64,000 nucleotides of DNA from Flavobacterium album. Its GTDB lineage: Bacteria; Bacteroidota; Bacteroidia; Flavobacteriales; Flavobacteriaceae. The DNA lies in contig NZ_CP029186.1 in the NCBI RefSeq assembly GCF_003096035.1, positions 1,873,001 to 1,937,000 on the forward strand, given 5' to 3'. A model generated the notes under the pieces. The model ran no database searches. It was not told the origin of the DNA and was given only the letters and a program-made list of their open reading frames with translations. Of this stretch, positions 1 to 26,493 are shown one piece after another. Position numbers and translations under genes: made by a program. The stretch's first letter is position 1. Each line of letters starts with the position of its first letter.

Positions 1-1
1 T

Positions 2-3320: not shown

Positions 3321-4328
3321 ATGAAAATATTAGTTACGGGAGCGGCAGGTTTTATAGGATATCATCTTAGCCAAAGGCTATTGGCAATGGGCCATGACGT
3401 AGTGGGCCTTGATAATATCAATGATTACTATGACATCAACCTGAAACTCGGAAGGCTTAGAGAACTGGGTATTTCCGGCACTCCTGCTGACAATGTACTG
3501 CTTACGGGCGAAATATTTAATGATAGGTTCCAATTCATAAAAATGGGGCTTGAAGAAAGGGATAATTTATACAATCTCTTCGAAACACAAAACTTCGATA
3601 TCATCTGCAACCTTGCTGCACAGGCGGGTGTAAGGTTCAGCCTTGAAAAACCTTTTACTTATATTGACAGTAATATCCTGGGCTTCATGAACATTCTTGA
3701 AGCTTGCAGGAACTACAATGTGAAAAAGCTTGTTTACGCGAGCAGCTCCAGCGTATATGGGCTGAACGATAAGATACCGTTCTCAACCGACGATAATGTA
3801 GACCACCCTATAAGCCTGTATGCCGCCACAAAAAAGAGCAACGAGCTTATGGCGCATACCTACAGCCACCTGTTCGGCATCAAAACTACAGGCCTTCGTT
3901 TCTTTACGGTATATGGCCCATGGGGCAGGCCGGACATGGCAATGTTCCTGTTTACCGATGCGATATTGAACGACAAGCCTATTAAGGTATTTAACGACGG
4001 AAACCTGTCACGTGACTTTACTTATATCGACGATATCGTTGAAGGTATCGTTGCCACCCTTTTTGACGAGCAGCAGGAACCATTGTACAAAGTGTACAAC
4101 ATTGGCAACAGCAAGCCGGTAAAACTGCTGGATTTCATCTCTGAAATAGAAAAAAGCACAGGCAAAACAGCCCAAAAAGAATATTTGCCGATGCAGCCCG
4201 GCGATGTTGAAAAAACATGGGCGGATGTTGAGGCTTTGAAAAACGACTTTGATTACAGCCCGGATACGGATATTGCCGAAGGAGTAAGAGAATTCGTTAC
4301 TTGGTACAAATCTTATTATAACCAATAG
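3321..4328 (+). CDS. UDP-glucuronate 4-epimerase-like extended SDR
   Basis: NAD-dependent epimerase of 335 residues. It has the TGAAGFIG nucleotide loop (6-13), the LDNINDYYD segment typical of UDP-glucuronate 4-epimerases, the SSSSVYG strand with the catalytic Ser, and Tyr167/Lys171 (YAATK). The downstream RFFTVYGPWGRPDMA block is also typical of the CapI/LspL group. The likely reaction is UDP-GlcA to UDP-GalA, consistent with the ugd gene upstream. A related UDP-GlcNAc(A) epimerase activity cannot be excluded, because the dehydrogenase at the window start makes a HexNAc uronate. Confidence 0.88.
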   Translation: MKILVTGAAGFIGYHLSQRLLAMGHDVVGLDNINDYYDINLKLGRLRELGISGTPADNVLLTGEIFNDRFQFIKMGLEERDNLYNLFETQNFDIICNLAAQAGVRFSLEKPFTYIDSNILGFMNILEACRNYNVKKLVYASSSSVYGLNDKIPFSTDDNVDHPISLYAATKKSNELMAHTYSHLFGIKTTGLRFFTVYGPWGRPDMAMFLFTDAILNDKPIKVFNDGNLSRDFTYIDDIVEGIVATLFDEQQEPLYKVYNIGNSKPVKLLDFISEIEKSTGKTAQKEYLPMQPGDVEKTWADVEALKNDFDYSPDTDIAEGVREFVTWYKSYYNQ

Positions 4329-4397: not shown

Positions 4398-5195
4398 ATG
4401 AACCAAAATTACAAGACAGCAATAGAAGCCAGTATTGTGGCAGGAAAAGCGATCATGGAAATCTATGAAAAAGATTTCGCAGTAGATTATAAAGAAGATG
4501 CCTCACCATTAACCGAAGCCGACCAGGCAGCGAACGCGGTGATCATGGAGTATCTGGTTACTACCGGGATACCCGTGATAAGCGAGGAGAACAAGCAGCT
4601 TCCGTACGATGAGCGCAAAGGCTGGACTTCCTGCTGGATTGTTGACCCTCTTGACGGTACTAAGGAATTCATAAAGAAAAACGGTGAATTTACTGTAAAT
4701 ATTGCGTTAGTCACCAATGGTGTACCGCAGTTTGGCGTTATTTATGTACCTGCTGTAAAAACGGTATATTATGGCGACATCGCATCGCAAAATTCCTTTA
4801 AGGTTCAGCTTGATTCACACGACGTAAATATTGAAGATGTTTTGGCTAACGCCAAAGCTATCAAACCCGCTGCCAGCGAAACGGCAATGCGTGTTGTGGG
4901 CAGCCGCTCGCACATGAGTGCGGATACACAGGAATTTGTAGACTCACTTAAAGAAACGACCGACAAGGAAATTGAAATAGTTTCTAAAGGAAGCTCATTG
5001 AAGTTTTGCCTTGTGGCAGAAGGGAATGCCGATGTGTACCCGCGTTTCGCACCCACTATGGAGTGGGATACCGCTGCCGGGCAGGCCATCTGTAATGCAG
5101 TAGGCGTATTGGTTATAGACAACGGTACCAAGAAAGCTATGGTATATAATAAAGAGAATTTATTGAATCCTTATTTCCTGGTATCCCATGCGTGA
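4398..5195 (+). CDS. cysQ: 3'(2'),5'-bisphosphate nucleotidase CysQ
   Basis: Hydrolyses PAP, the by-product of PAPS-dependent sulfotransferases, to AMP and phosphate. The 265-residue protein shows the inositol-phosphatase-fold metal motifs: SEEN near residue 60, WIVDPLDGTKEF, and MEWDTAAGQAI near the C-terminus. It overlaps the DUF2061 gene by 8 bp and heads a block with cysC, cysD and cysN. With a sulfotransferase gene 7 kb downstream and no cysH or sulfite reductase gene in the window, recycling PAP from polysaccharide sulfation is the likely job. Confidence 0.92.
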   Translation: MNQNYKTAIEASIVAGKAIMEIYEKDFAVDYKEDASPLTEADQAANAVIMEYLVTTGIPVISEENKQLPYDERKGWTSCWIVDPLDGTKEFIKKNGEFTVNIALVTNGVPQFGVIYVPAVKTVYYGDIASQNSFKVQLDSHDVNIEDVLANAKAIKPAASETAMRVVGSRSHMSADTQEFVDSLKETTDKEIEIVSKGSSLKFCLVAEGNADVYPRFAPTMEWDTAAGQAICNAVGVLVIDNGTKKAMVYNKENLLNPYFLVSHA

Positions 5196-5634
5196 TAATT
5201 CCCATAAGAGGCATATCCTTAAAGCCATATCCTGGCGCCTTGTCGGCTCGATAGATACCATGCTGGTAAGCTGGTTCATATCGGGCGACCCAATGATAGG
5301 CCTTAAAGTGGGATTCTCTGAAGTCGCTACAAAAATGCTCCTGTATTACCTTCACGAGAGGGTGTGGTACAAGATCAACCTTTCAAAAGATAAGGTGCTG
5401 AGGGAAAGCCGCAAGCGCCATTTGGCCAAAACAGTTACCTGGAGGATGGTGGGCACAATAGATACTATGATATTGGCCTGGATAATTTCGGGCGACCCTA
5501 TGACGGGGCTTAAGATAGGATTCTCTGAAGTAGCCACTAAAATGATATTGTATTATATCCACGAGCGCGTGTGGTATAAGGTTAAATACGGTTTGCCAAA
5601 AAAGACGGAAGAAGAAGCAAGTGCTTATGAATAA
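5188..5634 (+). CDS. Tandem DUF2061 membrane protein
   Basis: A 148-residue protein made of two near-identical DUF2061 units offset by 69 residues. Compare RHILKAISWRLVGSIDTM with RHLAKTVTWRMVGTIDTM, followed in both by GFSEVATKM and YY-HERVWYK. Each unit has one clear hydrophobic stretch around W-(I/F)ISGDPM and a second amphipathic one, suggesting a small inner-membrane protein. It overlaps cysQ by 8 bp and cysC by 8 bp, so it is translationally coupled to sulfate activation genes. The function of DUF2061 is unknown; a role tied to sulfate or PAPS is suggested only by context. Confidence 0.88.
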   Translation: MRDNSHKRHILKAISWRLVGSIDTMLVSWFISGDPMIGLKVGFSEVATKMLLYYLHERVWYKINLSKDKVLRESRKRHLAKTVTWRMVGTIDTMILAWIISGDPMTGLKIGFSEVATKMILYYIHERVWYKVKYGLPKKTEEEASAYE

Positions 5635-6217
5635 TATAGTAAAACACGATTACATTGTTTCCCGTGAAAACCGGAACCAAAAAAACGGGCATAAATCATA
5701 TGTGTTGTGGTTTACCGGGCTTTCCGGCTCCGGAAAATCTACAATAGCCAACAGGGTAGAAGAGACGCTTTTCGAAGAAGGCATAAGCACTTATACGCTT
5801 GATGGTGACAACATCCGTTGCGGCATCAACAAAGGGCTGGGCTTTAGCGAAGAAGACAGACATGAGAACCTGAGGCGTATTGCCGAAGTGGCAAAACTGT
5901 TTGTAGATGCAGGGATAGTAACCGTTGGCGCTTTTGTTTCACCACTGCACAAAGACAGGCAGCTGGTAAAAGAGATCATTGGCGAAAGCGACTTTATCGA
6001 GATATTTGTCGATACCAGCCTGGAGGAATGTGAGCGCAGGGATGTAAAAGGCTTGTACAAAAAAGCCCGTGCCGGCGAGATAAAGAATTTCACAGGTATC
6101 GATGCTCCTTATGAAAAACCCGCTAACCCTGATGTTTTGATTGAAACTGAAAAGGAAAGTATTGAAGAAGCAGTAAAAAAAGTAGTTACATTTGTAAAGT
6201 ATAAATTAGGACTTTAA
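5627..6217 (+). CDS. cysC: Adenylylsulfate (APS) kinase
   Basis: Phosphorylates APS to PAPS, the sulfate donor of sulfotransferases. The P-loop GLSGSGKST is at residues 31-39 of the 196-residue form, followed by the DGDNIRCG APS-binding block and the SPLHKDRQ segment. The ATG at 5627 is preferred over the in-frame GTG at 5621 because it gives the usual length and an 8-bp overlap with the upstream stop. It stands alone rather than fused to CysN, and is followed 4 bp later by cysD. Confidence 0.94.
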   Translation: MNNIVKHDYIVSRENRNQKNGHKSYVLWFTGLSGSGKSTIANRVEETLFEEGISTYTLDGDNIRCGINKGLGFSEEDRHENLRRIAEVAKLFVDAGIVTVGAFVSPLHKDRQLVKEIIGESDFIEIFVDTSLEECERRDVKGLYKKARAGEIKNFTGIDAPYEKPANPDVLIETEKESIEEAVKKVVTFVKYKLGL

Positions 6218-6221
6218 AGCA

Positions 6222-7127
6222 ATGAGCAAATATTATTTAAATTATTTAGATGAATTAGAATCCGAAGCTATTTATATACTTCGGGAAGTGTGGGCACAAT
6301 TCCAGAATCCGGTTATCCTGTTTTCGGGCGGAAAGGATTCTATATTAGTAACGCACCTGGCTAAAAAAGCTTTTTATCCTGCAAAAATACCTTTTGCACT
6401 TTTGCATATAGACACAGGCCATAACTTCCCTGAGACCATGCAGTTTCGCGATGACCTTGTTAAGGAGCTTGGCGTAAACCTGCTTGTTGGTTCTGTACAG
6501 GAAGCGATAGACAAAGGAAGGGTTGCCGAAGAGCGTGGAAAGAACGCAACCCGTAATGCACTACAGATTACTACTTTGCTTGATGCGATTGAATCGAACA
6601 AAATAGATTGTGCTATAGGCGGCGGCAGGCGCGATGAGGAAAAAGCACGTGCCAAAGAACGTTTCTTCTCACACAGGGACGAGTTTGGACAATGGGACCC
6701 TAAAAACCAGCGCCCGGAACTTTGGAACCTGCTTAACGGCAAACATTTCCAGGGCGAGCATTTCAGGGCATTCCCAATCAGCAACTGGACGGAAATGGAC
6801 GTATGGAACTACATAAAAAGGGAAAACATAGCGATCCCGTCTTTATATTTAGCGCACCAGCGCGAAGTGGTTTGGCGTAACGATTCATGGATCCCGAACT
6901 CGGAGTTCCTTATACTGGAGCCGAAAGAAGAGATCATCACAAAACAGATACGTTTCAGGACACTGGGCGATATCACCATCACGGGCGGTATCGAGTCGGA
7001 TGCGGATACGCTGGAAAAGATCGTGGAAGAAGTATCTACGATGCGCCATACCGAAAGGGGTAACCGTTCGGACGACAAGCGTTCGGAGTCCTCAATGGAA
7101 GACAGGAAAAGGGAAGGATACTTTTAG
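6222..7127 (+). CDS. cysD: Sulfate adenylyltransferase subunit 2
   Basis: The PP-loop ATP pyrophosphatase subunit of ATP sulfurylase; with CysN it makes APS from sulfate and ATP. The SGGKDS PP-loop is at residues 35-40, and the 301-residue length is normal. The GGGRRDEEKARAKER and RFRTLGD blocks are typical of CysD. It is 4 bp after cysC and 93 bp before cysN; that spacer shows no riboswitch or clear promoter. It serves PAPS formation here, as no reductive assimilation genes are nearby. Confidence 0.95.
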   Translation: MSKYYLNYLDELESEAIYILREVWAQFQNPVILFSGGKDSILVTHLAKKAFYPAKIPFALLHIDTGHNFPETMQFRDDLVKELGVNLLVGSVQEAIDKGRVAEERGKNATRNALQITTLLDAIESNKIDCAIGGGRRDEEKARAKERFFSHRDEFGQWDPKNQRPELWNLLNGKHFQGEHFRAFPISNWTEMDVWNYIKRENIAIPSLYLAHQREVVWRNDSWIPNSEFLILEPKEEIITKQIRFRTLGDITITGGIESDADTLEKIVEEVSTMRHTERGNRSDDKRSESSMEDRKREGYF

Positions 7128-7220
7128 TATTCCCTTCAGGTACAATAAACAGATACAATCTTTTTATTCTTTTAACTTATATAGCCGCATAAGGCAAAGA
7201 CAATTAAACGAATTAATAAA

Positions 7221-8480
7221 ATGCAGATAGATAATAACCAGCTATTACGATTTACCACAGCAGGAAGCGTAGACGACGGAAAGAGTACGCTAATAGGCCG
7301 CTTGCTATACGATTCCAAATCTATTTTTGAAGACCAGCTTGAAGCGATCGAAGCGACCAGCAAAAGAAAAGGCCATGAAGGGGTAGATCTTGCATTGTTT
7401 ACAGACGGGCTGAGGGACGAACGTGAGCAGGGCATCACCATCGATGTGGCATACCGCTATTTCACTACGCCAAAAAGGAAATTCATCATAGCAGATACTC
7501 CCGGGCATATCCAGTATACAAGGAATATGGTTACGGGTGCATCTACGGCCAACGCTGCGATCATCCTGATCGATGCGCGCCACGGTGTTATCGAGCAGAC
7601 CAAGAGGCATGCTTACATTGCTTCCCTGCTGCAGATCCCGCATATTATTGTTTGCATCAACAAAATGGACCTTGTTGATTTCTCAGAAAAAGTATACAAC
7701 GATATCCTTACGCAGTTCGAGGAATTCTCTTCGAAACTATATGTCAAGGACGTTCGCTTTATCCCGATCAGCGCCCTGAACGGCGATAATGTAGTGAACC
7801 GCTCTACATCAATGGACTGGTACGAAGGCTCGCCATTGCTTAATGTATTGGAAACGCTTCACATCAGCAGTGATATCAATAAAATAGATGCGCGTTTTGC
7901 AGTGCAGACCGTATTGCGCCCGCAGCGCGAAGGCTTTATAGACTACAGAGGCTATGCCGGAAGGATATCAAGCGGTATCTACCGTGTAGGGGATGAGATC
8001 GTTGTGCTGCCTTCAGGGTTTACATCGAAAATAAAATCGATTAATGCCGGCGAAACAGAGGTAGAAGAAGCCTATGCGCCAATGTCGGTTGCCATGACGC
8101 TTGAAGATGATATCGACATCAGCCGTGGCAATATGATCGTTAAGAAGAACAATCAGCCGGAAATGAAGCAGGAATTCGACGTGATGCTGTGCTGGCTGAA
8201 CAACCAGCCTGCAAGGCCGGGAGCAAAATATACGCTGGTGCATACCTCTAACGAGCAGCGCGCTATTATAAAGAATGTTGTTTATAAGGTAGACATCAAT
8301 ACCTATGAGCGTAACAATGAGGATAAGAACCTTGCAATGAATGATATTGCCCGCGTTACCGTGCGTGCGGCACAAAATGTAATGCTGGATCCGTACCGCG
8401 ATAACCGTAATACGGGAAGCATTATACTTATAGATGAAGGCACTAACGAAACAGTTGCCGCGGGGATGATTGTTGCATAA
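7221..8480 (+). CDS. cysN: Sulfate adenylyltransferase subunit 1 (GTPase)
   Basis: The regulatory GTPase subunit of ATP sulfurylase. GTPase motifs are G1 GSVDDGKST (15-23), G3 DTPGHIQYTRNM and G4 NKMD, followed by EF-Tu-like beta-barrel domains. At 419 residues it lacks the CysC fusion seen in some bacteria, which fits the separate cysC upstream. It closes the cysQ-DUF2061-cysC-cysD-cysN block and is followed 46 bp later by the flippase gene. Confidence 0.95.
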   Translation: MQIDNNQLLRFTTAGSVDDGKSTLIGRLLYDSKSIFEDQLEAIEATSKRKGHEGVDLALFTDGLRDEREQGITIDVAYRYFTTPKRKFIIADTPGHIQYTRNMVTGASTANAAIILIDARHGVIEQTKRHAYIASLLQIPHIIVCINKMDLVDFSEKVYNDILTQFEEFSSKLYVKDVRFIPISALNGDNVVNRSTSMDWYEGSPLLNVLETLHISSDINKIDARFAVQTVLRPQREGFIDYRGYAGRISSGIYRVGDEIVVLPSGFTSKIKSINAGETEVEEAYAPMSVAMTLEDDIDISRGNMIVKKNNQPEMKQEFDVMLCWLNNQPARPGAKYTLVHTSNEQRAIIKNVVYKVDINTYERNNEDKNLAMNDIARVTVRAAQNVMLDPYRDNRNTGSIILIDEGTNETVAAGMIVA

Positions 8481-8526: not shown

Positions 8527-9972
8527 TTGAGTAAAAAAATAGTAAACCAAACCAAGAAGAGCCTGATATGGGATCTTACAGGGTCTGTGTTAAGGCAGTT
8601 TGCAGGTATATTTATATCTATTATCCTGGCCAGGCTCCTTACCCCGGCGGAGTTTGGTATTATCGGGATGGCGATGGTTTTCATTGGCATAACCGAGGTT
8701 TTTATCGATGTTGGCTTTACGAGCGGGCTTATACAGCAGCAAAACACAAAGGATATTGCGTACTCATCTATTTTTTATGTCAATTTAGGTATCAGCGCCC
8801 TGTTGTCTTTAATTATAGTCCTGGTCGCGCCTTATGTAAGCGACTTTTATAATGAGCCGGAAATAAAGTTTATTCTGTATTACCTTGCACTCATACCTAT
8901 AATTGCTGCACTGGGCAGGGTACAATCGACGATACTGAGTAAACGGATGGATTTCCGTAGCCTCACGATAAGGAGTATATCTGCTACTGTAGTAGGCGGT
9001 ATTGCCGGGGTAGTAGCTGCTTACAGCGGCCTTGGGGTATACAGCCTTGTTGTTCAGCAGATCACAACGATAAGTACCTCTACGGTGCTGTTATGGTTTT
9101 CTACAGGCTGGAGGCCAAAGCTGGAATTCTCAATGGTAGAAGTAAAGTCGCTGTTAGGGTATTCAAGCTATATTTTCCTTGACGGCGTGTTGCGCCAGAT
9201 CTTTAACAGGATTGATACCATATTTGTGGGTAAGTTCTTTTCGCCGTCTATCCTTGGTTTTTACTCAAGGGCAGATTCGTTAAGGGCACAGATCGATACC
9301 TATACGACAAACAGCCTTCGGAAGGTAATGTTTCCTGCGCTGAGTGCCCTTCAGGATGATTTTCAGGCATTCAAGCAGATATACCATAAGATATTCAATG
9401 TAATTACCGGGCTTACCGTAATGCTGGTAGGGCCGATTTACTTTTTGTCGCACCAGATCATCATCGGGATGCTGGGCCAGAAATGGGCGCCGAGTATAGT
9501 ATTCTTCCAGATATTGCTGTTCTCCACGCTTACAACGCCGCAAACCGGTATGATGGCACAGGCGGTGCTTGCCAAAGGATTTTCCAAACTAAGGTTTAAG
9601 CTTGGCCTGATACAAAGGGTGCTAAAGCTGGCGCCCATGATATTCGGCTACTTTTTCGGTATTGTGAATTTTGCGTATGCCGTTATAACAGTGGCAACCC
9701 TGGTATTCTTTATCTATGCTTATGTAATGGACTCGAAATTCCAGATAAGCTTTGTGAAGCAGGTAAAGGAATTATTGCTGCCAAATGTGGTTTTCGGTGT
9801 ATTCCTGTTGTTTTACCACTTGTTCCGCGAAGATATAAATGCATGGCTCTATGCGGCAGGGTTTGTAATATGTAATGGCTTATTTTTGCACCTTATCAAG
9901 CATGAAAGCCTTACTGTTGTATTCAATAATTTAAAAACTGTAAAAGAGAAAATTTCCAAATTTAAACGATAA
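8527..9972 (+). CDS. Polysaccharide flippase of the WzxC/MOP type
   Basis: A 481-residue polytopic membrane protein with about 12-14 hydrophobic segments, of the MOP exporter superfamily. The N-terminal pattern ILARLLTPAEFGIIGMA followed by DVGFTSGLIQ is characteristic of WzxC-like lipopolysaccharide or colanic-type translocases. It should flip the undecaprenyl-linked repeat unit to the periplasm. The start is a TTG at 8527, because no ATG precedes the conserved first helix. It is the only flippase candidate in the window and pairs with the polymerase at 14689. Confidence 0.9.
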   Translation: MSKKIVNQTKKSLIWDLTGSVLRQFAGIFISIILARLLTPAEFGIIGMAMVFIGITEVFIDVGFTSGLIQQQNTKDIAYSSIFYVNLGISALLSLIIVLVAPYVSDFYNEPEIKFILYYLALIPIIAALGRVQSTILSKRMDFRSLTIRSISATVVGGIAGVVAAYSGLGVYSLVVQQITTISTSTVLLWFSTGWRPKLEFSMVEVKSLLGYSSYIFLDGVLRQIFNRIDTIFVGKFFSPSILGFYSRADSLRAQIDTYTTNSLRKVMFPALSALQDDFQAFKQIYHKIFNVITGLTVMLVGPIYFLSHQIIIGMLGQKWAPSIVFFQILLFSTLTTPQTGMMAQAVLAKGFSKLRFKLGLIQRVLKLAPMIFGYFFGIVNFAYAVITVATLVFFIYAYVMDSKFQISFVKQVKELLLPNVVFGVFLLFYHLFREDINAWLYAAGFVICNGLFLHLIKHESLTVVFNNLKTVKEKISKFKR

Positions 9973-9983
9973 TCTATTCTATT

Positions 9984-11234
9984 ATGGCACTTTCTATATC
10001 TAAAACGAGATTAAACGGCCTTGTAAAGGTTAGTGGGGCAAAAAACAGTTCCCTGCGTCTGTTGGCGGCATCGCTCCTGACAGAAGATACACTATTTTTG
10101 ACCAACTTCCCTAATGGGCTGCTTGATGTGCAGGTGCATTTGAAAATGCTTGAAGCGTTGGGCAAAACTATCGTAAGTGTAGATGATACAGTAGCTATAG
10201 GTAAAGGCGCCGAAGCGATAAAGACACAGCTTATATGGGATGAAAGATCGATAAGGAATACCCTTTTGATCCTGGGTGCCCTGACATCAAGGTATGGCGA
10301 AGGTAAAGTTCCGCTGCCGGGTGGCTGTAAGCTGGGCGAAAGGAAATATGACCTGCACGTAATGCTCCTGGAAAAGCTTGGGGCAGAAGTATGGGAAGAA
10401 GGAGATTACCTGTGTGCGAAAGCTAAAACAGGAAGGCTGAGCGGGGCAGAGATCCATTTGCCGATGCGCTCTACCGGTGCTACAGAAAATACAATCATCG
10501 CTGCTTCTTTGGCATCAGGAAAAACTACATTATTCAACCCGCATATCAGGCCTGAAATCATGGACCTTATTGATATGCTTAATAAAATGGGCGCTAAGAT
10601 CAGGGTATTCGGGCAAAGGTCTATCGAGATCGAAGGCGTTGATTACCTATCAGGTGCTAAGCACGCAGTTATCCCTGATAACATGGAAGCGCTTACGTGG
10701 GCTATCGGATCAGTAATTACAAATGGCGAAGTAGAAATAGAGAACTTCCCGTACGAACACCTTGAAGTGCCATTGGTATACCTTAGGGAAAGCGGAATGA
10801 AGTTTTACAAAGGTGATACAAGCCTTATCGTAAAAGGCGGAACGGCTTACCCAATAGAGATCAGTACAGGACCTTACCCGGGCATCAACTCTGATATGCA
10901 GCCGCTTTTTGCTGTATACGGTGCTATGTCAAGGGGCGAATCTAAAATTGTCGACCTTCGTTTCCCGGGCAGGTATGCGTATGCAGAAGAACTTGCTAAA
11001 CTTGGCGTTGATTCTTATGTATCCGGAGATATGCTTGTAATCAATGGTGGTAACCCAATAAAAGGCGGGACTGTAAGGGCATTAGACCTTAGGGCAGGTA
11101 TCGCGCTGCTATTGGCAGGTATGACTTCTGACGAGGTAGTGACTATCGAAGAAGACTGGCAGATCTACAGGGGTTACGAGAACCTGTCTGAAAAGATACA
11201 GGCGCTGGGCGGAAAAAAACTTGAACTGGTATAA
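9984..11234 (+). CDS. MurA-like enolpyruvyl transferase in the polysaccharide locus
   Basis: A paralogue of UDP-GlcNAc 1-carboxyvinyltransferase, which moves enolpyruvate from PEP to the 3-OH of UDP-GlcNAc. Active-site residues are all present: Lys20/Asn21 (GAKNSS), Cys115 in PGGCKLGER, Arg120, Asp304 in GINSDMQ, and Arg370 in DLRAGIALL. The usual RP-x-DLH is changed to RKYDLH (121-122 Lys-Tyr), and at 416 residues it is slightly short of typical MurA. It lies between the flippase and an acetyltransferase gene, with a MurB homologue three genes later. I infer that it makes an enolpyruvyl sugar for the exopolysaccharide rather than for peptidoglycan; the exact nucleotide sugar is unknown. Confidence 0.88.
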   Translation: MALSISKTRLNGLVKVSGAKNSSLRLLAASLLTEDTLFLTNFPNGLLDVQVHLKMLEALGKTIVSVDDTVAIGKGAEAIKTQLIWDERSIRNTLLILGALTSRYGEGKVPLPGGCKLGERKYDLHVMLLEKLGAEVWEEGDYLCAKAKTGRLSGAEIHLPMRSTGATENTIIAASLASGKTTLFNPHIRPEIMDLIDMLNKMGAKIRVFGQRSIEIEGVDYLSGAKHAVIPDNMEALTWAIGSVITNGEVEIENFPYEHLEVPLVYLRESGMKFYKGDTSLIVKGGTAYPIEISTGPYPGINSDMQPLFAVYGAMSRGESKIVDLRFPGRYAYAEELAKLGVDSYVSGDMLVINGGNPIKGGTVRALDLRAGIALLLAGMTSDEVVTIEEDWQIYRGYENLSEKIQALGGKKLELV

Positions 11235-11256
11235 CGGATAACGTAACTGATTAGCT

Positions 11257-11769
11257 GTGAGTATATTCAAACTTATTTCCCAGGATCTAAATAATTATAG
11301 CGAAAAAGGGCTTCACAGGAAGCTGCTGAGCTTCTGGTTCAATATGCCCTTCAGGCTGATCCTTAATTACAGGATCGGGCATTACCTGTCGAAGAGGAGG
11401 AACATCCTCACCAATATAATTATTATGTATCTGAAGAAAAAGCAGCTGATAAAATATTCCTGCGATATTTCCTATCAGGCCAAAATTGGCAGGAATATAA
11501 AATTCCCGCACCCATTGGGCATCGTTATTGGTGTCGGGTCGGTGATAGACGACAATGTGATGATATGGCAGAATGTTACCCTTGGCAGTAAAGGCGCCGA
11601 CACGAAAGCCTATCCGCACATTAAATCTAATGTAAAGATATTCAGTGCTGCACAGATAATCGGCGGTGTAACTGTTGGTGAAAATTCCAGGATAGGCGCA
11701 TTTTCGGTAGTGCTGAAAGACGTGCCAGATAACTCGACAGCAATAGGTATTCCTGCAATAATAAAATAG
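11257..11769 (+). CDS. Hexapeptide-repeat acetyltransferase, serine acetyltransferase-like
   Basis: A 170-residue left-handed beta-helix acyltransferase. The C-terminal half carries CysE-like repeats (HPLGIVIGVGSVIDDNV, QNVTLGSKG, IIGGVTVGENSRIGAFSVV) and ends with GIPA. The N-terminus is much shorter than in true CysE, as in the sugar acetyltransferases of capsule loci. It starts at a GTG 22 bp after the MurA-like gene and precedes the sulfotransferase by 5 bp. O-acetylation of a glycan residue is more likely than cysteine synthesis, but the acceptor is unknown. Confidence 0.8.
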   Translation: MSIFKLISQDLNNYSEKGLHRKLLSFWFNMPFRLILNYRIGHYLSKRRNILTNIIIMYLKKKQLIKYSCDISYQAKIGRNIKFPHPLGIVIGVGSVIDDNVMIWQNVTLGSKGADTKAYPHIKSNVKIFSAAQIIGGVTVGENSRIGAFSVVLKDVPDNSTAIGIPAIIK

Positions 11770-11774
11770 ATATT

Positions 11775-12635
11775 ATGGTTCCAGATTTTATACTTGGTGG
11801 CGCTATGAAAAGCGGCACGACTTTTTTGAACAACCTGCTTTTAAACCATCCGGATGTAATTATTATTGACCGGAATATGGATCATGCATATTTTGATGAT
11901 GACAGGATATTCAAGCGTGGTAAGGACTGGTATTTGAGCCTTTTTGAAAAAGCGCTTAAGGATAAAAAAGAAGGCACTGTTATAGGGCAGACTTCGGCCG
12001 ACGTTAATTTTAACCCCGGCAGCGTAAAGAAGATCCTGGAGCACAACCCGGATATGAAGCTCATCTTCGTGCTCAGGCACCCGATAGAACGTACCTACTC
12101 GCTATACTGGCACCAGTACGGGATGGGAAGGGAATACAGGAATTTTGAGAAAGCCTTAAAAAAAGAGCCGGAAAAGATAAATAAATCGTATCACAACTTT
12201 AAGCACTACTCGTTTTTAGAGCGCAGCAGGTATGCCAAGCAATTTAAGGATATCGTTGGGGTAGTGCCGGATAAGAACCTGCTTATTTTAGATTTTGACT
12301 CACTTACTAAAGACACCAAGGCTTCGATAAATGTTGTACTGGAGTTTTTAGGCGTATCAAAAATAAATGATGTTGAAGAACTGAACTTTTCAAAATTGCC
12401 AAGGAACCCTGCCAAGATACCAACAAAGCATTCGATGGTATTGTTATCCGCATTCCTCCAGAAATTAGGAATGGACAGGGCGGGAAGAAGGATACTGAAC
12501 ATGTTCCGGGAAGAAGTGCGCCCCCCGAAAATGAACCCCGATACCCGCATCCTTTTAGAGGCCGAACTGAAAGATGATATTCAGTTCTTTGAAAAGGTTA
12601 AGTCTGATTTTGAAGCAAGAATCGGAAAAAAATAA
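11775..12635 (+). CDS. PAPS-dependent sulfotransferase
   Basis: Transfers sulfate from PAPS to a sugar hydroxyl, most likely on a lipid-linked repeat unit. The 286-residue protein has the 5'-phosphosulfate loop KSGTTFL at 12-18 and the 3'-phosphate motif with Arg101 and Ser109 (LRHPIERTYSLYWH), as in heparan-type sulfotransferases. No signal peptide is seen, so it should act in the cytosol. PAPS supply and PAP removal are encoded by the cysQ/C/D/N block in the same gene series. It sits between an acetyltransferase and a MurB-like reductase. Confidence 0.9.
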   Translation: MVPDFILGGAMKSGTTFLNNLLLNHPDVIIIDRNMDHAYFDDDRIFKRGKDWYLSLFEKALKDKKEGTVIGQTSADVNFNPGSVKKILEHNPDMKLIFVLRHPIERTYSLYWHQYGMGREYRNFEKALKKEPEKINKSYHNFKHYSFLERSRYAKQFKDIVGVVPDKNLLILDFDSLTKDTKASINVVLEFLGVSKINDVEELNFSKLPRNPAKIPTKHSMVLLSAFLQKLGMDRAGRRILNMFREEVRPPKMNPDTRILLEAELKDDIQFFEKVKSDFEARIGKK

Positions 12636-12650
12636 TTTAAACAGAATACA

Positions 12651-13511
12651 GTGAAGATAGAGAACAATTTCGACCTGACTAATTATAACAGCTACAAGAT
12701 AAAAGCAATATGCAACAGGGCTTTTTTTCCTAAAAATGAAGCTGATTTTATAGAAATATTTAAAGATTCCGGCCTTGAGAACAAAGTGATCATAGGTGGT
12801 GGCTACAATATAATATTTTCTAAAGATCGTTATGAGGAAGATTTTATAATTGTTGGCGAAAGCTATGCTTCTATAACACTGGAAGAAGGCAACGTGGTGG
12901 TATGCGAGGCAGGGGCTAGCACATTAAAGCTTACCGAATTTGCGCTTAAACATTCGCTGTCGGGTGTAGAGATATTTTATGATATACCAAGTTCTTTGGG
13001 CGGCGCAGTGGTTATGAATGCCGGCGCCAGCGGGGAAGAAATAAAAGATATCCTTGTAAAAGTAAGGTACCTTGACCTTACCGATATGCAGGTAAAAGAA
13101 ATCTATAAGGCGGATATTGGCTATGAATACAGGAACAGCCTTTTTCAGCGCGAGACCAACCAGGTCGTGCTAAAAGTATGGCTCCAGTTGCAGCCCGGAA
13201 ATGCCGAAGATATTAAGAATAAAATGGAGACGGTTAAGGAGGCACGCTGGGCTAAACAGCCTAAAGAATACCCGAACGCAGGTAGTGTCTTCAAAAGGCC
13301 GCCGGGACATTATGTGGGCCCTATGATCGATGAGCTCCAGCTGAAGGGATACCGTATTGGTGGAGCCGAAGTTTCTAAAAAGCACGGCGGCTTCATTATA
13401 AATGTAGACCATGCCACAGGAGAGGATATCATTAGTGTTATCAAACATGTGCAGTCAAAAGTAAGGGAGCGTTTTAATGTTGATCTGGAAATAGAACAAA
13501 GAATCATATAA
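12651..13511 (+). CDS. MurB-like UDP-N-acetylenolpyruvoylglucosamine reductase in the polysaccharide locus
   Basis: A FAD-dependent reductase that converts an enolpyruvyl ether to a lactyl ether using NADPH. The 286-residue length and the motif AGSVFKRPPG (Ser212 as proton donor) place it in the short type II MurB class. GGGYNIIF (49-56) binds FAD, and Arg161 (YRNS) and Glu282 (IEQRII) complete the catalytic set. It starts at GTG 12651. Bacteroidota normally carry a longer MurB with other murein genes; here no mur or fts genes are near, while a MurA-like gene lies 1.4 kb upstream. The pair predicts a muramic-acid-like sugar in the glycan. Confidence 0.87.
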   Translation: MKIENNFDLTNYNSYKIKAICNRAFFPKNEADFIEIFKDSGLENKVIIGGGYNIIFSKDRYEEDFIIVGESYASITLEEGNVVVCEAGASTLKLTEFALKHSLSGVEIFYDIPSSLGGAVVMNAGASGEEIKDILVKVRYLDLTDMQVKEIYKADIGYEYRNSLFQRETNQVVLKVWLQLQPGNAEDIKNKMETVKEARWAKQPKEYPNAGSVFKRPPGHYVGPMIDELQLKGYRIGGAEVSKKHGGFIINVDHATGEDIISVIKHVQSKVRERFNVDLEIEQRII

Positions 13512-13512: not shown

Positions 13513-14673
13513 ATGAATATATTATTTTTAATATCGAACGATGGCGGCAATGGGGTTGGAGGGCATTATAATTCCCTTAACCAGGTAAGCATAGAAATGG
13601 CCAGAGAGCATAATGTAAAGATCGTTACATTAGGTTCTTCCTCAAGCCCTGTTATACTAAGCAATCCTAATTTTGCAAAGCACATCAAGGTAGGCAAAGG
13701 GCTAAAGAGTTTATTTACGCTGAACGCTGAATTAAAGAGCTTTGTAAAAACTTTCACTCCTGACGTGGTACATTGTTTCGATACACATTCCCTAAACAGG
13801 ATTCTCCCGATATCGGCCCTTTCAAAATACCCTGTGGTACTAAATAAATGCGGCGGAAGGAACCCGCTACAGGGCAATTACCAGCATGCGGATGCCATTG
13901 TTGTATTTAGTAAAGAAAACCAGGAATGGTTTATTAAGAATAAAAATTACGACAATAAAGACATTTTTATTATCCCGAACAGGGTAAGAAAACTGGATTT
14001 TCTCGATGAAAGCCAGAGGGTGGAGCAAAAAGATCCAAACAAAATAACTTTTGTAAGGGTAAGCAGGCTTGGAGGTGCCTATGAAAAAACACTTCTTGAC
14101 TCCTACAACCTAATAGAGGAGCTGGCTAAAAGATACCCGGTGGAATTTATTGTAATCGGGCGTATACAGAATAAGACAAGGTTTGAAGCCCTTACAAAAG
14201 AAGCAGTTGACAGGAAACTCCCTGTGAAATTCATTACAGATGAACGGGCTGCAAAAGGCTCCGACTTTTTATACCTGGCAGATTTTGTTGTAGGTACCGG
14301 CAGGAGCTTCATGGAGGCCACATCACTTGGTATCCCTTCACTTACACCGGTTGAGAATGCTAATTATCCAATGCTGGTGAACAAGGAGAACTTTGATGAG
14401 CTGTTCAGTACTAATTTCTCTGAAAGGAATAAAGCTGAAACAAAGCATGTGGATAAGAACCTGTCTAATATAGAGGAACTGATACAGGATAAAGCAAAAT
14501 ATGAGGCGGCAAAAAAAGATACACTCGACCTGTTTACGGAGTTTTTCGGGACCGGCGGTATCGTCACTAAATACAACGCAGTATACGATTATGCTTTAAA
14601 GAAGCCTGTTAAAAGGTTTAGCCTCATCAGGAAGAACTTAATTTACATAGTGAAATTTGCTTTGGGCAAATAG
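13513..14673 (+). CDS. Glycosyltransferase, GT4-like
   Basis: A 386-residue GT-B fold protein that starts one base after the MurB-like stop codon. The N-terminus MNILFLISNDGGNGVGGH is a glycine-rich acceptor-side loop. The C-terminal donor half has GRSFMEATSLGIPSL, a variant of the E-x7-E region in which the first Glu is not obvious. It should add one sugar of the repeat unit on the cytosolic side. Donor and linkage cannot be read from the sequence. Tight packing with the MurB-like and polymerase genes suggests a single transcript. Confidence 0.82.
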   Translation: MNILFLISNDGGNGVGGHYNSLNQVSIEMAREHNVKIVTLGSSSSPVILSNPNFAKHIKVGKGLKSLFTLNAELKSFVKTFTPDVVHCFDTHSLNRILPISALSKYPVVLNKCGGRNPLQGNYQHADAIVVFSKENQEWFIKNKNYDNKDIFIIPNRVRKLDFLDESQRVEQKDPNKITFVRVSRLGGAYEKTLLDSYNLIEELAKRYPVEFIVIGRIQNKTRFEALTKEAVDRKLPVKFITDERAAKGSDFLYLADFVVGTGRSFMEATSLGIPSLTPVENANYPMLVNKENFDELFSTNFSERNKAETKHVDKNLSNIEELIQDKAKYEAAKKDTLDLFTEFFGTGGIVTKYNAVYDYALKKPVKRFSLIRKNLIYIVKFALGK

Positions 14674-14688: not shown

Positions 14689-15984
14689 ATGAGAGAAAAT
14701 CAGTCAAAAGGTTTCGCGATATTACTGCTTTTTGTTTCCCCGGCCATTGCGCTGTTCAGTGCAGTGAAGCATTTGGAGTGGAAACATAAGAAGCTGGTCC
14801 TTATCCTTTTCATAACTATCTACGGTTCACTGCTAAAATACGGTGAAGGATCTGATGCGGCGGTTTACTACCAGCTGTTGAATAGTTATGATAATATGTC
14901 CTTTTCTGAATTCTTTTTGAGGTTAGAGCACATTATAACGTTCAATCCGTTGCCGGGCTCGCCCAACGACGTTTATGTACACGTGCTTGCCTTTTTTTCC
15001 AGCAGCATATTAGGGATGCACGACGTGTTTTTCCCTATTGTTGGATTTATATATGGCTACTTCTATGTTACAGCGATGTCCAAGATCCTGGTTTGGGAAA
15101 AAGGGCGGAAATTAACATTGTCATTACTGTTAATAGTTATACTGTTCATCATCCACAGGAGCGTTACGAGCTTTCAGACTGTTAGGACATGGACGGGAAT
15201 GTGGGTGCTGTTCAACGGGGTATTAGGGTACCATCAGACAAGGCAAAAAAAATATGTGCTGCTCATGTGCTGTGCACCTCTGATCCACTTTGCCTATTTT
15301 GTTATTGCGTTGCCGGCATTTGCGGCGCTTTATATCAGGAAGATACCTGCCAAGGTGATTATCGCGGTATATATTATTTCATTCTTTACCAGCTTTAATC
15401 CGGGAGGTATATTGGATGCGGCTAAGGAAAACTCACTTGCCGAAACGAAAGTAGGGGCCTACTACCGGGAAAATGCCGAAGGTGAAGGTATCGACCCGAT
15501 CATGGAGCGTATGGAAGAGTCTAATGCGGTGTGGTATGCCAAATACGGAAAAACCGACTCTGTATATTACGGAGGCCATGCTTTTGCATTTTTACTGATA
15601 CTTTCCGGCTATTTCAAAAAGAAAATGACACAGGTAGAAATAGGGCTCTTTGGAACGGGCCTGATGATGGCGATCCTGGCAAATTTCGGGGCATTTTCGT
15701 ATGCTTTCTACAGTCGGACTATGGCCAATGCGGTAGTGTACATATTAGGTGCCGTCAGCCTGCTTGCCATCCGGGGGGCTTTTTCGTTCAGGGATACCCA
15801 TAACCCGAGGCTCATGCGTTTTTTGAACTGGGTATGTATTCTGGTGTTTGTACCTAAAATGGTGTTTTTTGTAGCTGACCTTTTGGTAATGACAAGTGTC
15901 TTTATTTTAGGGCTGCCGTTCATAGGCTGGGTAAGCTCCGACTTAAATATTTCCATAAGGGAGATCATGGGTGAATTTTTGTAA
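14689..15984 (+). CDS. Wzy-type polysaccharide polymerase, EpsG-like
   Basis: A 431-residue membrane protein with about ten hydrophobic segments. The conserved stretch FQTVRTWTGMWV followed by HQTRQKKY and then PLIHFAYFVIALP matches the EpsG family (Arg-rich helix, short basic loop, Ile-His helix). It is proposed to polymerise flipped repeat units in the periplasm. It is the only polymerase candidate in the locus and sits next to a glycosyltransferase and the paired deacetylase genes. Members of this family diverge quickly, so the call rests on topology, motif and context. Confidence 0.8.
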   Translation: MRENQSKGFAILLLFVSPAIALFSAVKHLEWKHKKLVLILFITIYGSLLKYGEGSDAAVYYQLLNSYDNMSFSEFFLRLEHIITFNPLPGSPNDVYVHVLAFFSSSILGMHDVFFPIVGFIYGYFYVTAMSKILVWEKGRKLTLSLLLIVILFIIHRSVTSFQTVRTWTGMWVLFNGVLGYHQTRQKKYVLLMCCAPLIHFAYFVIALPAFAALYIRKIPAKVIIAVYIISFFTSFNPGGILDAAKENSLAETKVGAYYRENAEGEGIDPIMERMEESNAVWYAKYGKTDSVYYGGHAFAFLLILSGYFKKKMTQVEIGLFGTGLMMAILANFGAFSYAFYSRTMANAVVYILGAVSLLAIRGAFSFRDTHNPRLMRFLNWVCILVFVPKMVFFVADLLVMTSVFILGLPFIGWVSSDLNISIREIMGEFL

Positions 15985-15998
15985 ATAACTTATATATT

Positions 15999-17123
15999 AT
16001 GCTAGCGAAACTAATTAAAAATTTTTCGAATCTTCCGGGCTGGAGGTCAAACCGTAAAATAGTGGTCATTGAATCTGATGACTGGGGAAGCATAAGAATG
16101 TCTTCAAATGAGGCATATAAAGCAGTTGCAGCTGCAGGATTATCTGTTGATAAAGGTGCCGGCGGCAGGTATAACAGATACGATACGCTTGCTTCAAAAG
16201 AGGATCTTACTGCGCTGTTTGAAACTCTTTCCAGCGTTAAGGACAGCAATAATAAGGGGGCAAAGATCACGGCAGTAAGCCTTGTGTCCAACCCGGATTT
16301 TGATAAGATCAAAGCCGATAATTTTCAGAAATACCATTACGAGCCGTTTACAAAAACGCTTGAACGCTATAACAAAGCCGATGCATTCCCTTTGTGGAAA
16401 GAAGGCAGGGATGCGAATATTTTTGCACCCGAATTCCACGGCAGGGAACACCTTAATATCCAGGCGTGGCTAAGGGCGCTGCAGTCCGGCGACAAAGAAG
16501 CGCTGGTAGCTTTCGATAATAATATATGGGGATATAGCAGGAAAGATGGCAAAATTGGTTTCCAGGCAGCTTTTGACCTGGAGCTTGCTTCTGACCTTGC
16601 AATGCAAAAAGAAATAGTGAAAGACGGCCTTGCGCTGTTTGAAAAGCTTCATGGCTTTAAAGCACAGTTCTTCGTTCCCCCGAACGGCCCTCTGAACAAT
16701 GAACTGGAAAAGGTTGCCGCAGATGGTGGTATAATCTACATGTCATCTCCTAAAGTACAGGTAGAGCCACTCGGCGACGGTAAGACCAGGAAGAACATGA
16801 GGCATATTGGGAAGAAAAACAGCCATGGGCAGACTTATATTACCCGTAATGCGTTTTTTGAGCCTTCAGGTTCAGGGAAAGATGATGTAAACAGCTGTCT
16901 TGCCGAGATCGCCATGGCTTTCAAATGGAAAAAGCCAGCCGTGATCAGTTCGCACAGGGTGAATTTCATCGGAGGGCTGGATGTAGCAAACCGTGATAAC
17001 GGCTTAAAGCAATTGCACAAGCTGTTGACCGCCATTGTAAAAAGATGGCCTGATGTTGAATTTATGACTTCATCAGAGCTGGGGGACATTATTACTAAAC
17101 GTGATCAGCATAATGCTAAATAA
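15999..17123 (+). CDS. Polysaccharide deacetylase-like protein (NodB fold), copy 1
   Basis: A 374-residue protein without a signal peptide. It keeps two metal-binding elements of CE4 enzymes: Asp27-Asp28 in VIESDDWGSIRM and His147-x3-His151 in EFHGREHLN. The C-terminal SSHRVNF segment may carry a further active-site His. It is longer than the classical NodB domain, and the insert between the Asp and His motifs is large. It is a tandem paralogue of the next gene. N-deacetylation of a sugar on the lipid carrier is the likely role; Bacteroidota homologues are called polysaccharide (de)acetylases, mostly without experimental proof. Confidence 0.75.
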   Translation: MLAKLIKNFSNLPGWRSNRKIVVIESDDWGSIRMSSNEAYKAVAAAGLSVDKGAGGRYNRYDTLASKEDLTALFETLSSVKDSNNKGAKITAVSLVSNPDFDKIKADNFQKYHYEPFTKTLERYNKADAFPLWKEGRDANIFAPEFHGREHLNIQAWLRALQSGDKEALVAFDNNIWGYSRKDGKIGFQAAFDLELASDLAMQKEIVKDGLALFEKLHGFKAQFFVPPNGPLNNELEKVAADGGIIYMSSPKVQVEPLGDGKTRKNMRHIGKKNSHGQTYITRNAFFEPSGSGKDDVNSCLAEIAMAFKWKKPAVISSHRVNFIGGLDVANRDNGLKQLHKLLTAIVKRWPDVEFMTSSELGDIITKRDQHNAK

Positions 17124-18249
17124 TTTAAAGAATACTGTATCCAGGAGTCTTACCAATATCAAAGGTTGGAAGTCGGGCCGGAAAATCGTTGTTATTGACA
17201 GTGATGACTGGGGAAGCATCAGGATACCGAATAAAGAGGTGCGCGATGCTTTTCAGGACGCCGGGTATAACATCATATCCAACCCGTATTGCAAGTATGA
17301 TACATTGGCCAATACAGAAGACCTGGATAAGTTATTTAGCATACTGCTTAAATACAAGGATAAGAACGGCAACCACCCTGTTTTTACAGCCAATACCGTG
17401 GTTGCAAACCCTGACTTTGCCGCGATCAGGGAGTCGGGCTTTACAAAATATTCTTATAAGCCCTTTACAACGGCGCTTAAAGAGTATTATCCGCAGGAAG
17501 ATGTTTTTGGGAAGTGGCAGGAAGGCATGGACAATAAAATATTCCGTCCGCAATATCATGGCCGCGAGCATTTAAACGTGCCGCTATGGCTGGAGACATT
17601 AAGAAGCAACAATAAAATATTCGTAGATGCTTTCAATATGGGCTTTTGGGGTGTACCAAAAAACCTGCACAGCAAAGACATTTATAACATACAGGCCGCC
17701 TATAGTTCTGTAGATACTGAAAATGTTGCATTCTACAAAAGGTCGATACAGGAAGGCCTCGACCTTTTTGAGGCGATATTCCATTTCAGGTCGAAAACCT
17801 TTATTGCGAATAATTATACATGGTCGCCGGAATTGAATGAAACGCTGAACAATAGCGGGGTAACGGCTTTCCAGAGCATGAGGTACCAAAAGATACCTGA
17901 TAATACAAGTAAGGCAGGCGTAAAGCTGTCATCGGTACACACAGGTAAAAGAAATGCGCTTGGGCAGGTATACCTGGTACGGAATTGTGCTTTTGAGCCT
18001 TCGCAAATGTCCAAAAGCTTTGATAATGTAGGGAATTGCATAAAGGATATCGAGAATGCTTTTTTCTTCAAAAAACCGGCCATTATAGCTAGCCACAGGC
18101 TTAATTATATAGGGGCTATCGATCCTGGCAACAGGGATCGGAACCTTAAGTATTTAAACGACCTTTTAGACCAAATTATGAACAAATGGCCTGATGCAGA
18201 ATTTATGAGTTCCGACCAGCTGGCCCTCCTAATTCAAGATGGAAAATAA
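17113..18249 (+). CDS. Polysaccharide deacetylase-like protein (NodB fold), copy 2
   Basis: A tandem paralogue of the preceding gene, 378 residues from the ATG at 17113; an in-frame GTG at 17101 is less likely because the ATG lines up with the start of copy 1. It keeps VIDSDDWGSIRI (Asp31-Asp32) and the QYHGREHLN metal motif, plus ASHRLNYIGA near the end. It overlaps copy 1 by 11 bp, so the pair is translationally coupled. The copies differ strongly in the middle, suggesting different substrates or positions rather than simple dosage. Confidence 0.75.
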   Translation: MLNNLKNTVSRSLTNIKGWKSGRKIVVIDSDDWGSIRIPNKEVRDAFQDAGYNIISNPYCKYDTLANTEDLDKLFSILLKYKDKNGNHPVFTANTVVANPDFAAIRESGFTKYSYKPFTTALKEYYPQEDVFGKWQEGMDNKIFRPQYHGREHLNVPLWLETLRSNNKIFVDAFNMGFWGVPKNLHSKDIYNIQAAYSSVDTENVAFYKRSIQEGLDLFEAIFHFRSKTFIANNYTWSPELNETLNNSGVTAFQSMRYQKIPDNTSKAGVKLSSVHTGKRNALGQVYLVRNCAFEPSQMSKSFDNVGNCIKDIENAFFFKKPAIIASHRLNYIGAIDPGNRDRNLKYLNDLLDQIMNKWPDAEFMSSDQLALLIQDGK

Positions 18250-19345
18250 TAAACTCAAAGTATGCTTCCTCATACCCTCTGTATATTCCGGGGGGATAGA
18301 AACCTATTTGTTGCGATTTTTAAATTATCTCAGCAATAGCATGGATGTGACTGTTATTGTCAGGAAATCTACAAAAGGGGAGCTTTATGATGATTATATA
18401 GCAACCGGGGCAAAATTGGTATTCATGCCGCTTGGGTATTTTGAACCCGGGAAAATGGTTTCCTATTACAGGTTTTTTAAAAAGAACAGGTTTGATGTAG
18501 TATGCGATTTCAATGCTAACTTTGCGGGCCTGCCAATGTTCTTAAGCAAGCTTGCCGGGGTTAAAAAGAGGATAACGTTCTACAGGCAGGGCAGCCACCA
18601 TTTTAAAAAGACAGCGTTCAGGGTTGCGTATACCAATTTCCTGAATAGGCTTGTTTATAAATACAGCACGCATATTTTTGCCAATTCGGTATCGGGGCTC
18701 AAATTCTTTTTTGGGGACAAATACCCGGCAGATCCGCGTTTTAAAGTAATAAGAAATGGTGTCGGCGTTAGTAATTTCTCTGATTCCCAAACAAGTAAAA
18801 GCGAATTAAGGGAAAAACTGGAGCTGCCACGCGATAAATTTATAGTAGGGCATACGGGGCGTTTTGCAGAAGCAAAAAATCATTTTTTCCTGCTGGATGT
18901 TGCCCAAAAGCTTTTGGAAGCCGATAAGGACTTTTATTTTGTATTGATAGGCAATAACACGGACAAGCTTATACCGTATAGCGAAAAGCTGGGTATAAGG
19001 GACAGTATTTTATTTTTGGGATTCAAAGCCAATATTCCTGAATACCTGAAAGCTTTCGATGCGTTCTTTTTCCCTTCCGTTACCGAGGGGCAGCCGAATG
19101 CGCTTATTGAGGCAATGATATCCGGGCTCCCAATTGTCGCTTCAGATATAGGTCCTATAATGGAATGCATGCCTGAAAATGATACCAAAAGCCTTGTAAG
19201 CCCAACTGACGTACCGGCCGCAACGCAAAAGATACTTGAGGTGAAGCAAAACCCTGAAAAATTCACATACCAGAAGTTTGCTTCAGAGAACTTTGATGCC
19301 AAAGTGCAGTTTAAGATATTTAAAGACAGTTTATTACATCATTAA
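18239..19345 (+). CDS. Glycosyltransferase family 4
   Basis: A 368-residue GT-B glycosyltransferase. The N-terminus has PSVYSGGIETYLLRFL, typical of GT4. The donor half has GHTGRFAEAKNH and the retaining E-x7-E motif in TEGQPNALIEAMISG. It overlaps the deacetylase copy 2 stop by 11 bp and the next gene by one base. It should add a sugar during repeat-unit assembly; specificity is not predictable. Confidence 0.9.
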   Translation: MENNKLKVCFLIPSVYSGGIETYLLRFLNYLSNSMDVTVIVRKSTKGELYDDYIATGAKLVFMPLGYFEPGKMVSYYRFFKKNRFDVVCDFNANFAGLPMFLSKLAGVKKRITFYRQGSHHFKKTAFRVAYTNFLNRLVYKYSTHIFANSVSGLKFFFGDKYPADPRFKVIRNGVGVSNFSDSQTSKSELREKLELPRDKFIVGHTGRFAEAKNHFFLLDVAQKLLEADKDFYFVLIGNNTDKLIPYSEKLGIRDSILFLGFKANIPEYLKAFDAFFFPSVTEGQPNALIEAMISGLPIVASDIGPIMECMPENDTKSLVSPTDVPAATQKILEVKQNPEKFTYQKFASENFDAKVQFKIFKDSLLHH

Positions 19346-23568: not shown

Positions 23569-23580
23569 ATAGAAACGGAT

Positions 23581-23805: not shown

Positions 23806-23807
23806 AT

Positions 23808-25639: not shown

Positions 25640-25676
25640 CCATTTCTTACACAAACCAAAACCTTTTTATACTACC

Positions 25677-26330: not shown

Positions 26331-26353
26331 CATGTAGTTGATATTTAATTATT

Positions 26354-26380: not shown

Positions 26381-26493
26381 TTATTCATTTTTGGCCGATA
26401 ATTTGGCAAGCGCCCTGAGGCGCTAAAAAATCAGGTATTGGCAGGATTATGTTATTATAATATTATAATCAAAAAAGGCTTACAAATTTGCAT

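Follow-up and report, generated by a model that had tools for sequence, protein, structure and literature searches.

A MurA–MurB paralogue pair in an exopolysaccharide cluster of Flavobacterium album, with a lactyl-ether sugar as its probable product

What do paralogues of the murein enzymes MurA and MurB do in a gene cluster for a surface glycan? The question is raised by a window of 64,000 nucleotides from Flavobacterium album (contig NZ_CP029186.1, positions 1,873,001 to 1,937,000; "the window" is this whole stretch, numbered from its first letter), where an enolpyruvyl transferase of the MurA family, here called MurA2 (9984..11234), is followed by a flavin adenine dinucleotide (FAD)-dependent enolpyruvyl reductase of the MurB family, here called MurB2 (12651..13511). 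All genes of the window named below are on the forward strand. Judged from sequence, the two very probably form a dedicated pair that makes a lactyl-ether sugar for the surface glycan. With less assurance, we lean toward a uridine diphosphate (UDP)-hexuronate as the acceptor, in which case the product would be a 3-O-lactyl uronic acid (e.g., nosturonic acid). These proposals are built on the families of the two proteins, their retained catalytic residues, their paralogy to housekeeping copies, their conserved pairing, the changed sugar pocket of MurA2 and an enrichment of uronate genes near it. From these observations we infer the substrate, the product and its stereochemistry, and the transferase of the lactyl sugar.

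Family membership, pairing and the murein copies of the host

MurA2 matches PF00275 (8e-71), NF006873 and TIGR01072 (9e-109); the TIGR01072 equivalog cut-off (392.7 bits) is missed at 364 bits and is passed by some relatives, and the assignment as a MurA with an altered sugar pocket draws on its clade and signature residues as well. MurB2 matches PF02873, PF01565 and TIGR00179 (7e-66; 222 bits, above the cut-off of 144.5). The family matches span nearly the whole length of both proteins. Cys115, Arg120, Asp304 and Arg370 are retained in MurA2, and Arg161, Ser212 and Glu282 in MurB2. Coordinates, family matches and residues all bear out the first-pass annotation, which had described a MurA and a MurB paralogue with these catalytic residues. 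It had also placed them three genes apart, and MurB2 is indeed the third gene 3′ of MurA2, with an acetyltransferase-like and a sulfotransferase gene between the two.

Relatives of MurA2 were collected by a contig scan; the best 80 of 129 confirmed matches (58–90% identity) together with the window give 81 loci. MurA2 was detected by tblastn in all 80. The sets of 75 MurA2 rows used below omit L061, L064, L065, L079, L080 and L084, where the main cluster of the open reading frame (ORF) caller held no MurA2 ORF, and the housekeeping MurA set (n = 31) comprises 30 loci and the host's own copy. Residues for catalysis and binding of phosphoenolpyruvate (PEP), i.e., Lys22, Asn23, Cys115, Arg120, Asp305, Arg371 and Arg397, are retained in at least 74 of the 75 rows. 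With a broad MurB query set, a MurB was found near MurA2 in 66 of the 80 loci, never more than 3132 bp away; the distance is at most 300 bp in 29 cases, and 65 of the pairs are on the same strand.

The complete F. album genome is a single contig of 3.98 Mb. A search for second copies gave a further MurA at 121 kb (31% identity) and a further MurB at 72 kb, so the window does not hold the only murA and murB of this genome. In the tree, the other MurA of the host groups with the housekeeping MurA of other genomes. The distant second murA and murB, together with the tree, rule out that the pair represents housekeeping copies that merely happen to be located in a capsule locus. Collectively, the second copies, the tree position and the conserved pairing uphold the earlier claim of a dedicated MurA/MurB pair in a surface-glycan locus, apart from murein synthesis; such a pair would most naturally make a lactyl-ether sugar.

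MurA2 and MurB2 share fold families, catalytic residues and a two-step chemistry with the murein enzymes. Moreover, among 36 carrier genomes hand-chosen from the 80 loci, a separate housekeeping MurA was found in 34 (in G033 as two pieces) and none was seen in G020 and G031. The shared families and the two genomes in which no separate copy was seen speak for a spare or regulated backup for murein synthesis. We nevertheless regard a backup role as scarcely credible, because MurA2 forms a distinct clade with an altered sugar pocket, has glycan-cluster genes as neighbours and is carried by few genomes.

The sugar pocket of MurA2 and the uronate genes around it

The first-pass annotation had read Lys121-Tyr122, in place of the usual residues, as a hint of a changed substrate. 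The two residues are present in the window and frequent in the family (Lys121 in 71 and Tyr122 in 65 of 75 rows). The hint is strongly supported by ten positions that are shared by 75/75 MurA2 and by 0/31 housekeeping MurA, namely Arg162, Thr164, Pro186, His187, Arg189, Asn233, Ile301, Asn302, Ser303 and Arg326 (161, 163, 185, 186, 188, 232, 302, 303, 304 and 327 in E. coli-type numbers).

Several of the changes recall 5-enolpyruvylshikimate-3-phosphate (EPSP) synthase, AroA, which also transfers enolpyruvate to a ring hydroxyl. In an alignment with 13 of 15 AroA loci (two failed the length filter), Arg189 of MurA2 (75/75) replaces Glu188 (E. coli-type) of housekeeping MurA (Glu in 31/31), and AroA has Arg or Lys in 8/13. 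Likewise, Arg326 (75/75) replaces Ile/Met/Val327 (E. coli-type; basic in 0/31) and corresponds to Lys in 12/13 AroA. Position 25, Pro/Gln27 in housekeeping MurA, is Arg or Lys in 71/75 MurA2 (one row is gapped), 0/31 housekeeping MurA and 12/13 AroA. Six alignment columns are basic in AroA but lack this charge in housekeeping MurA; three of the six are basic in MurA2, vs 3/311 of the remaining columns (Fisher p 7e-5). In AroA, Arg27 binds the carboxylate of shikimate 3-phosphate, and Lys340 also contacts this ligand. MurA2 is thus basic where an enzyme with a carboxylated substrate is basic, which suggests that the acceptor ring carries a carboxylate, i.e., that it is a uronic acid. The likeness does not extend to the family level, as MurA2 scores 77 bits with the EPSP synthase model TIGR01356, far below its cut-off of 287.

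The basic residues gained by the pocket (Arg162, His187, Arg189 and Arg326) could also suit a different charged or modified nucleotide sugar, such as one that is sulfated, phosphorylated or carried on another nucleotide, and the product would still be a lactyl ether. Lys121-Tyr122, presumably at the site where MurA holds uridine, would fit such an acceptor. We consider this acceptor improbable, since sulfation genes are near a minority of the loci only and uronate genes are common. The sulfotransferase family of the window occurs in 9/81 and CysC in 11/81 of the MurA2 loci examined; hence, although the cluster here is one for a sulfated exopolysaccharide, the pair is not a speciality of sulfated capsules, and sulfation looks incidental to it.

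For MurA itself, Arg91 and Val163 have been assigned to the diphosphate pocket and Asp305 to that of the glucosamine (available part of PMC10500568), and a docking study finds Arg232, Thr304 and Glu188 around one ligand (available part of PMC12658796). That a MurA-like enzyme can use another acceptor is illustrated by NikO, the nikkomycin enolpyruvyl transferase (PDB 4fqd), which acts on uridine monophosphate (available part of PMC6801904). The similarity of MurA2 to NikO is weak (95 bits). Furthermore, we know of no MurB step for NikO.

The cluster itself carries full sets of genes for making nucleotide-activated uronic acids, a feature that was overlooked before. It starts with a TviC-like epimerase outside the window (L008 8858-9901; 381 bits with the TviC model, cut-off 760), followed by a TviB-like UDP-N-acetylglucosamine (GlcNAc) 6-dehydrogenase (1..1195, its start lying 5′ of the window; L008 9924-11195), a UDP-glucose 6-dehydrogenase-like gene (1254..2651), which would supply UDP-glucuronic acid (GlcA), and a CapI-like epimerase (3321..4328). 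Both dehydrogenases exceed the cut-off of the general model TIGR03026 and stay below those of the specific ones (NF011729 with 557 bits vs 592 for the TviB-like protein; UDP-glucose dehydrogenase models for the other). The sugar-epimerase matches of the CapI-like protein are also below their cut-offs, with no NCBIfam match at 1e-60; we name it a probable UDP-glucuronate 4-epimerase from its N-x-Y-Y-D motif. In several relatives, an epimerase of this kind is directly 5′ of MurA2.

To what extent this setting is particular to MurA2 can be judged from 34 MurA2 loci (Bacteroidota save one Psychrobacter) and 40 controls, hand-picked from the listed matches as loci with a priming transferase for anchor. 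TviB-type genes were found in 14/34 vs 0/40, TviC-type in 14/34 vs 0/40, CapI-type in 10/34 vs 0/40 and UDP-glucose dehydrogenase in 6/34 vs 1/40; any uronate dehydrogenase was present in 15/34 vs 3/40. At least one uronate gene of the tested types occurs in 40/83 MurA2 loci examined.

These data lead to the following model. MurA2 would use PEP to place an enolpyruvyl group on O3 of a hexuronic acid in nucleotide-activated form (UDP-GlcA, UDP-N-acetylglucosaminuronic acid (GlcNAcA) or a galacto isomer), supplied by the dehydrogenases and epimerases of the cluster. MurB2 would then draw on NADPH and FAD to reduce this enolpyruvyl ether, which would yield a 3-O-lactyl (1-carboxyethyl) uronic acid, and a neighbouring glycosyltransferase would add this sugar to the repeating unit of the exopolysaccharide. 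The candidate transferase is the glycosyltransferase family 4 (GT4)-type gene that adjoins MurB2 (13513..14673; PF13439).

Products of this kind are known. 3-O-Lactyl GlcA (nosturonic acid) has been found in the exopolysaccharide of Vibrio alginolyticus CNCM I-5034 and is cited there for Nostoc commune DRH-1 (PMC5983295), N-acetylmuramic acid (MurNAc) occurs in the lipooligosaccharide of Psychrobacter arcticus (PMC4515632), and the (S)-lactyl isomer of MurNAc in Proteus penneri 62 (PMC10609480). These glycans, with nosturonic, N-acetylmuramic and isomuramic acid, carry an O3 lactyl ether on GlcA or GlcNAc, the product type expected here; the available parts of the three papers name no biosynthetic gene. 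Among the open-licence papers listed by the searches, none deals with a MurA/MurB pair for lactyl or muramic sugars of surface glycans. A capsule of Vibrio vulnificus, to go by a cited title, is also said to contain muramic acid.

The muramic glycans lend some weight to the product first put forward for this locus, UDP-MurNAc or an isomer on another, carboxylate-free N-acetyl sugar, as a polysaccharide building block. It is also compatible with the retained catalytic residues, and one carrier of MurA2 is a Psychrobacter (L047). However, every cell with housekeeping MurA and MurB already makes UDP-MurNAc, and the sugar pocket is altered in all 75 rows, with AroA-like basic residues. The lactyl-ether part of the earlier claim therefore stands, and UDP-MurNAc itself loses ground to the positive charges of the pocket and the uronate genes near MurA2. 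We rate this alternative as unlikely, though worth keeping in mind, and expect a 3-O-lactyl uronic acid to be the more likely product.

Some observations weigh against the proposed pathway to lactyl uronic acids. The control loci have a different anchor gene and were picked by hand, and the loci are related to each other. In 43/83 loci, the cyanobacterial ones included, none of the tested uronate genes is seen in the DNA examined, and where they are seen the set varies (GlcA/GalA or GlcNAcA/GalNAcA, with GalA and GalNAcA for the galacto forms), so that no single sugar is indicated. A nucleotide-sugar dehydrogenase is present in 37/37 carriers, yet also in 13/14 control genomes, which is compatible with the proposal and weak as support. 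Of the 118 genomes sampled from the family to which the Anabaenopsis carrier belongs, only the carrier itself has MurA2, so MurA2 leaves the nosturonic acid of Nostoc unexplained. Finally, no MurB was found in the examined DNA of 14/80 loci, and the genomes of two of them (L066 and L078) have a single MurB each, away from MurA2. Taken alone, this could mean that in some loci the enolpyruvyl ether itself is the end product. We find that very hard to believe: three of the 14 loci are incomplete, the contig of L079 holds a MurB at ~15 kb from MurA2, a housekeeping MurB could serve, and MurB2 is present in the window.

Spread, origin and reductase partners of the MurA2 family

The pair is not limited to this capsule, a point that had also been missed. 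Going by their record titles, the 80 loci come from ten phyla, with one locus unassigned: 44 are from Bacteroidota, 17 from Pseudomonadota, five from Verrucomicrobiota, four from Thermodesulfobacteriota, three from Cyanobacteriota and two from Bacillota, and Spirochaetota, Armatimonadota, Planctomycetota and Actinomycetota have one each. Within lineages, carriers are rare. MurA2 was found in 1/296 genomes of the phylum sample (the F. album genome alone) and in 3/150 of the genus sample, that genome counted. Nor is there support for general carriage among the relatives of the Anabaenopsis carrier or of the Photobacterium one (1/118, the carrier itself, and 2/197, carrier counted, in their families).

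Seven plasmids bear a MurA2-type gene (57–62% identity). On five large Rhizobium plasmids (H1 and H3–H6) these genes, with 60–61% identity, lack a listed annotation. In Qingshengfaniella, a MurA2-MurB-glycosyltransferase trio is placed amid unrelated catabolic genes; in Agrobacterium sp. MA01, MurB-MurA2 is beside O-antigen ligases, a tyrosine autokinase, a gene of the UDP-glucose dehydrogenase family and an epimerase. The family would be a warning that genes annotated as murA or murB in glycan loci or on plasmids need not serve murein.

A quick tree, built from the 75 MurA2 rows and 31 housekeeping MurA, places MurA2 on its own side of a branch with a Shimodaira–Hasegawa-like approximate likelihood ratio test (SH-aLRT) value of 100; its stem measures 2.3 changes per column, and the program gave a long-branch warning. 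A more careful tree of 70 rows, with 30 of the 75 MurA2 rows and rooted on AroA (four of 13 left out), gives MurA2 as a clade (99/100) and housekeeping MurA as no clade. With the reservation that the AroA root is weak, this suggests that MurA2 is derived from within MurA.

The reductases may have a different history. In a MurB tree from whose housekeeping set five pair-partner loci were removed, most of the 63 partners are in a group of 42 (38 from Bacteroidota, including the window), and 16 more, drawn from several phyla, form a second group. Three partners from cyanobacteria are next to the housekeeping MurB of that phylum (SH-aLRT 95), and two rows are strays. Partners thus fall in three branches, and a single co-inherited MurA2-MurB2 unit is unsupported. 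The starred branches require the label to change at least twice; this is a quick tree with very long rows, so the result is suggestive of a reductase that may have been recruited repeatedly by one MurA2 family. Repeated recruitment would imply that the enolpyruvyl product is meant for reduction. A signature shared across the MurB groups was sought, and gave six columns only, of no clear meaning (L131 and L144 were left out).

In the Anabaenopsis genome, a whole MurB is 5′ of MurA2, and a further MurB match, incomplete and split in two, is just 3′ of it (G024 contig 1, 2852482-2852837). Three loci from different phyla in whose examined DNA no MurB was seen have a PQQ_2/BamB-like beta-propeller gene near MurA2 (L035 13097-14293, L066 12449-13639 and L068 8105-9307); a role of this protein as substitute reductase was considered, and nothing supports it.

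Residue 115 offers a handle on function. Cys115 is present in 75/75 MurA2, and 17/31 housekeeping MurA have Asp at the same site, including the host's own (G000 contig 1, 121102-122364; L002), where Asp replaces the Cys targeted by fosfomycin. Asp at this position has been linked with fosfomycin resistance (available parts of PMC4062475 and PMC6801904). In the host, fosfomycin should consequently hit MurA2 and spare murein synthesis. For Bacteroidota carriers in general, whose housekeeping MurA has Asp at this site, the drug is predicted to block the coat sugar and not murein, which makes the function simple to probe.

Tentatively, and with some doubt about the whole, the parts can be joined as follows: a scattered, horizontally moving pair, in which a MurA-derived transferase with EPSP-synthase-like carboxylate recognition and a recurrently recruited MurB would make UDP-3-O-lactyl uronic acids, with MurA2 sensitive to fosfomycin and murein spared in Bacteroidota. 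Lactyl-ether sugars are known from nuclear magnetic resonance of surface polysaccharides, and the MurA2 family would be a gene marker that predicts them. The pair would also show the chemistry of murein put to a new use in the outer coat and, if the acceptor is a uronate, a gene route to nosturonic-type sugars.

Other genes of the cluster and of MurA2 loci

Common neighbours of MurA2 among the 81 loci are GT4 transferases (49), flippases (45), acetyltransferase-like proteins (39) and nucleotide-sugar dehydrogenases (31). In the window, a Wzx-type flippase gene (8527..9972; matches to NF007773/NF058658 below cut-off) is directly 5′ of MurA2. Between MurA2 and MurB2 are an EpsC/CysE-like hexapeptide acetyltransferase (11257..11769; PF00132, and NF041874 with 130 bits, below the cut-off of 150) and the sulfotransferase (11775..12635; PF13469 and PF00685). 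In 11/81 loci (e.g., L044 12210-13232), MurA2 has as neighbour a member of a family in which the one protein tested shows a RimK-like ATP-grasp domain; this family might amidate a polysaccharide carboxylate.

Sulfate activation is represented by genes for CysQ, a DUF2061 protein and CysC-, CysD- and CysN-like proteins (4398..8480); CysQ is above its cut-off and the last three were named by eye. The DUF2061 protein (5188-5634), between CysQ and the CysC-like gene, has two DUF2061 stretches. The rest of the cluster (14689..30603) encodes a possible polymerase, glycosyltransferases, a pyruvyl transferase-like protein, a ketoacyl-ACP synthase III (KAS III), a short-chain dehydrogenase/reductase (SDR), PglD-, DegT- and PglF-like proteins and an export protein. 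An Rfam scan of the window gave nothing at gathering score, and the Pfam search gave no match for 14689-15984, 15999-17123 and 17101-18249. The last two encode adjacent paralogous proteins of 374 and 382 amino acids, with kin in 7/81 MurA2 loci.

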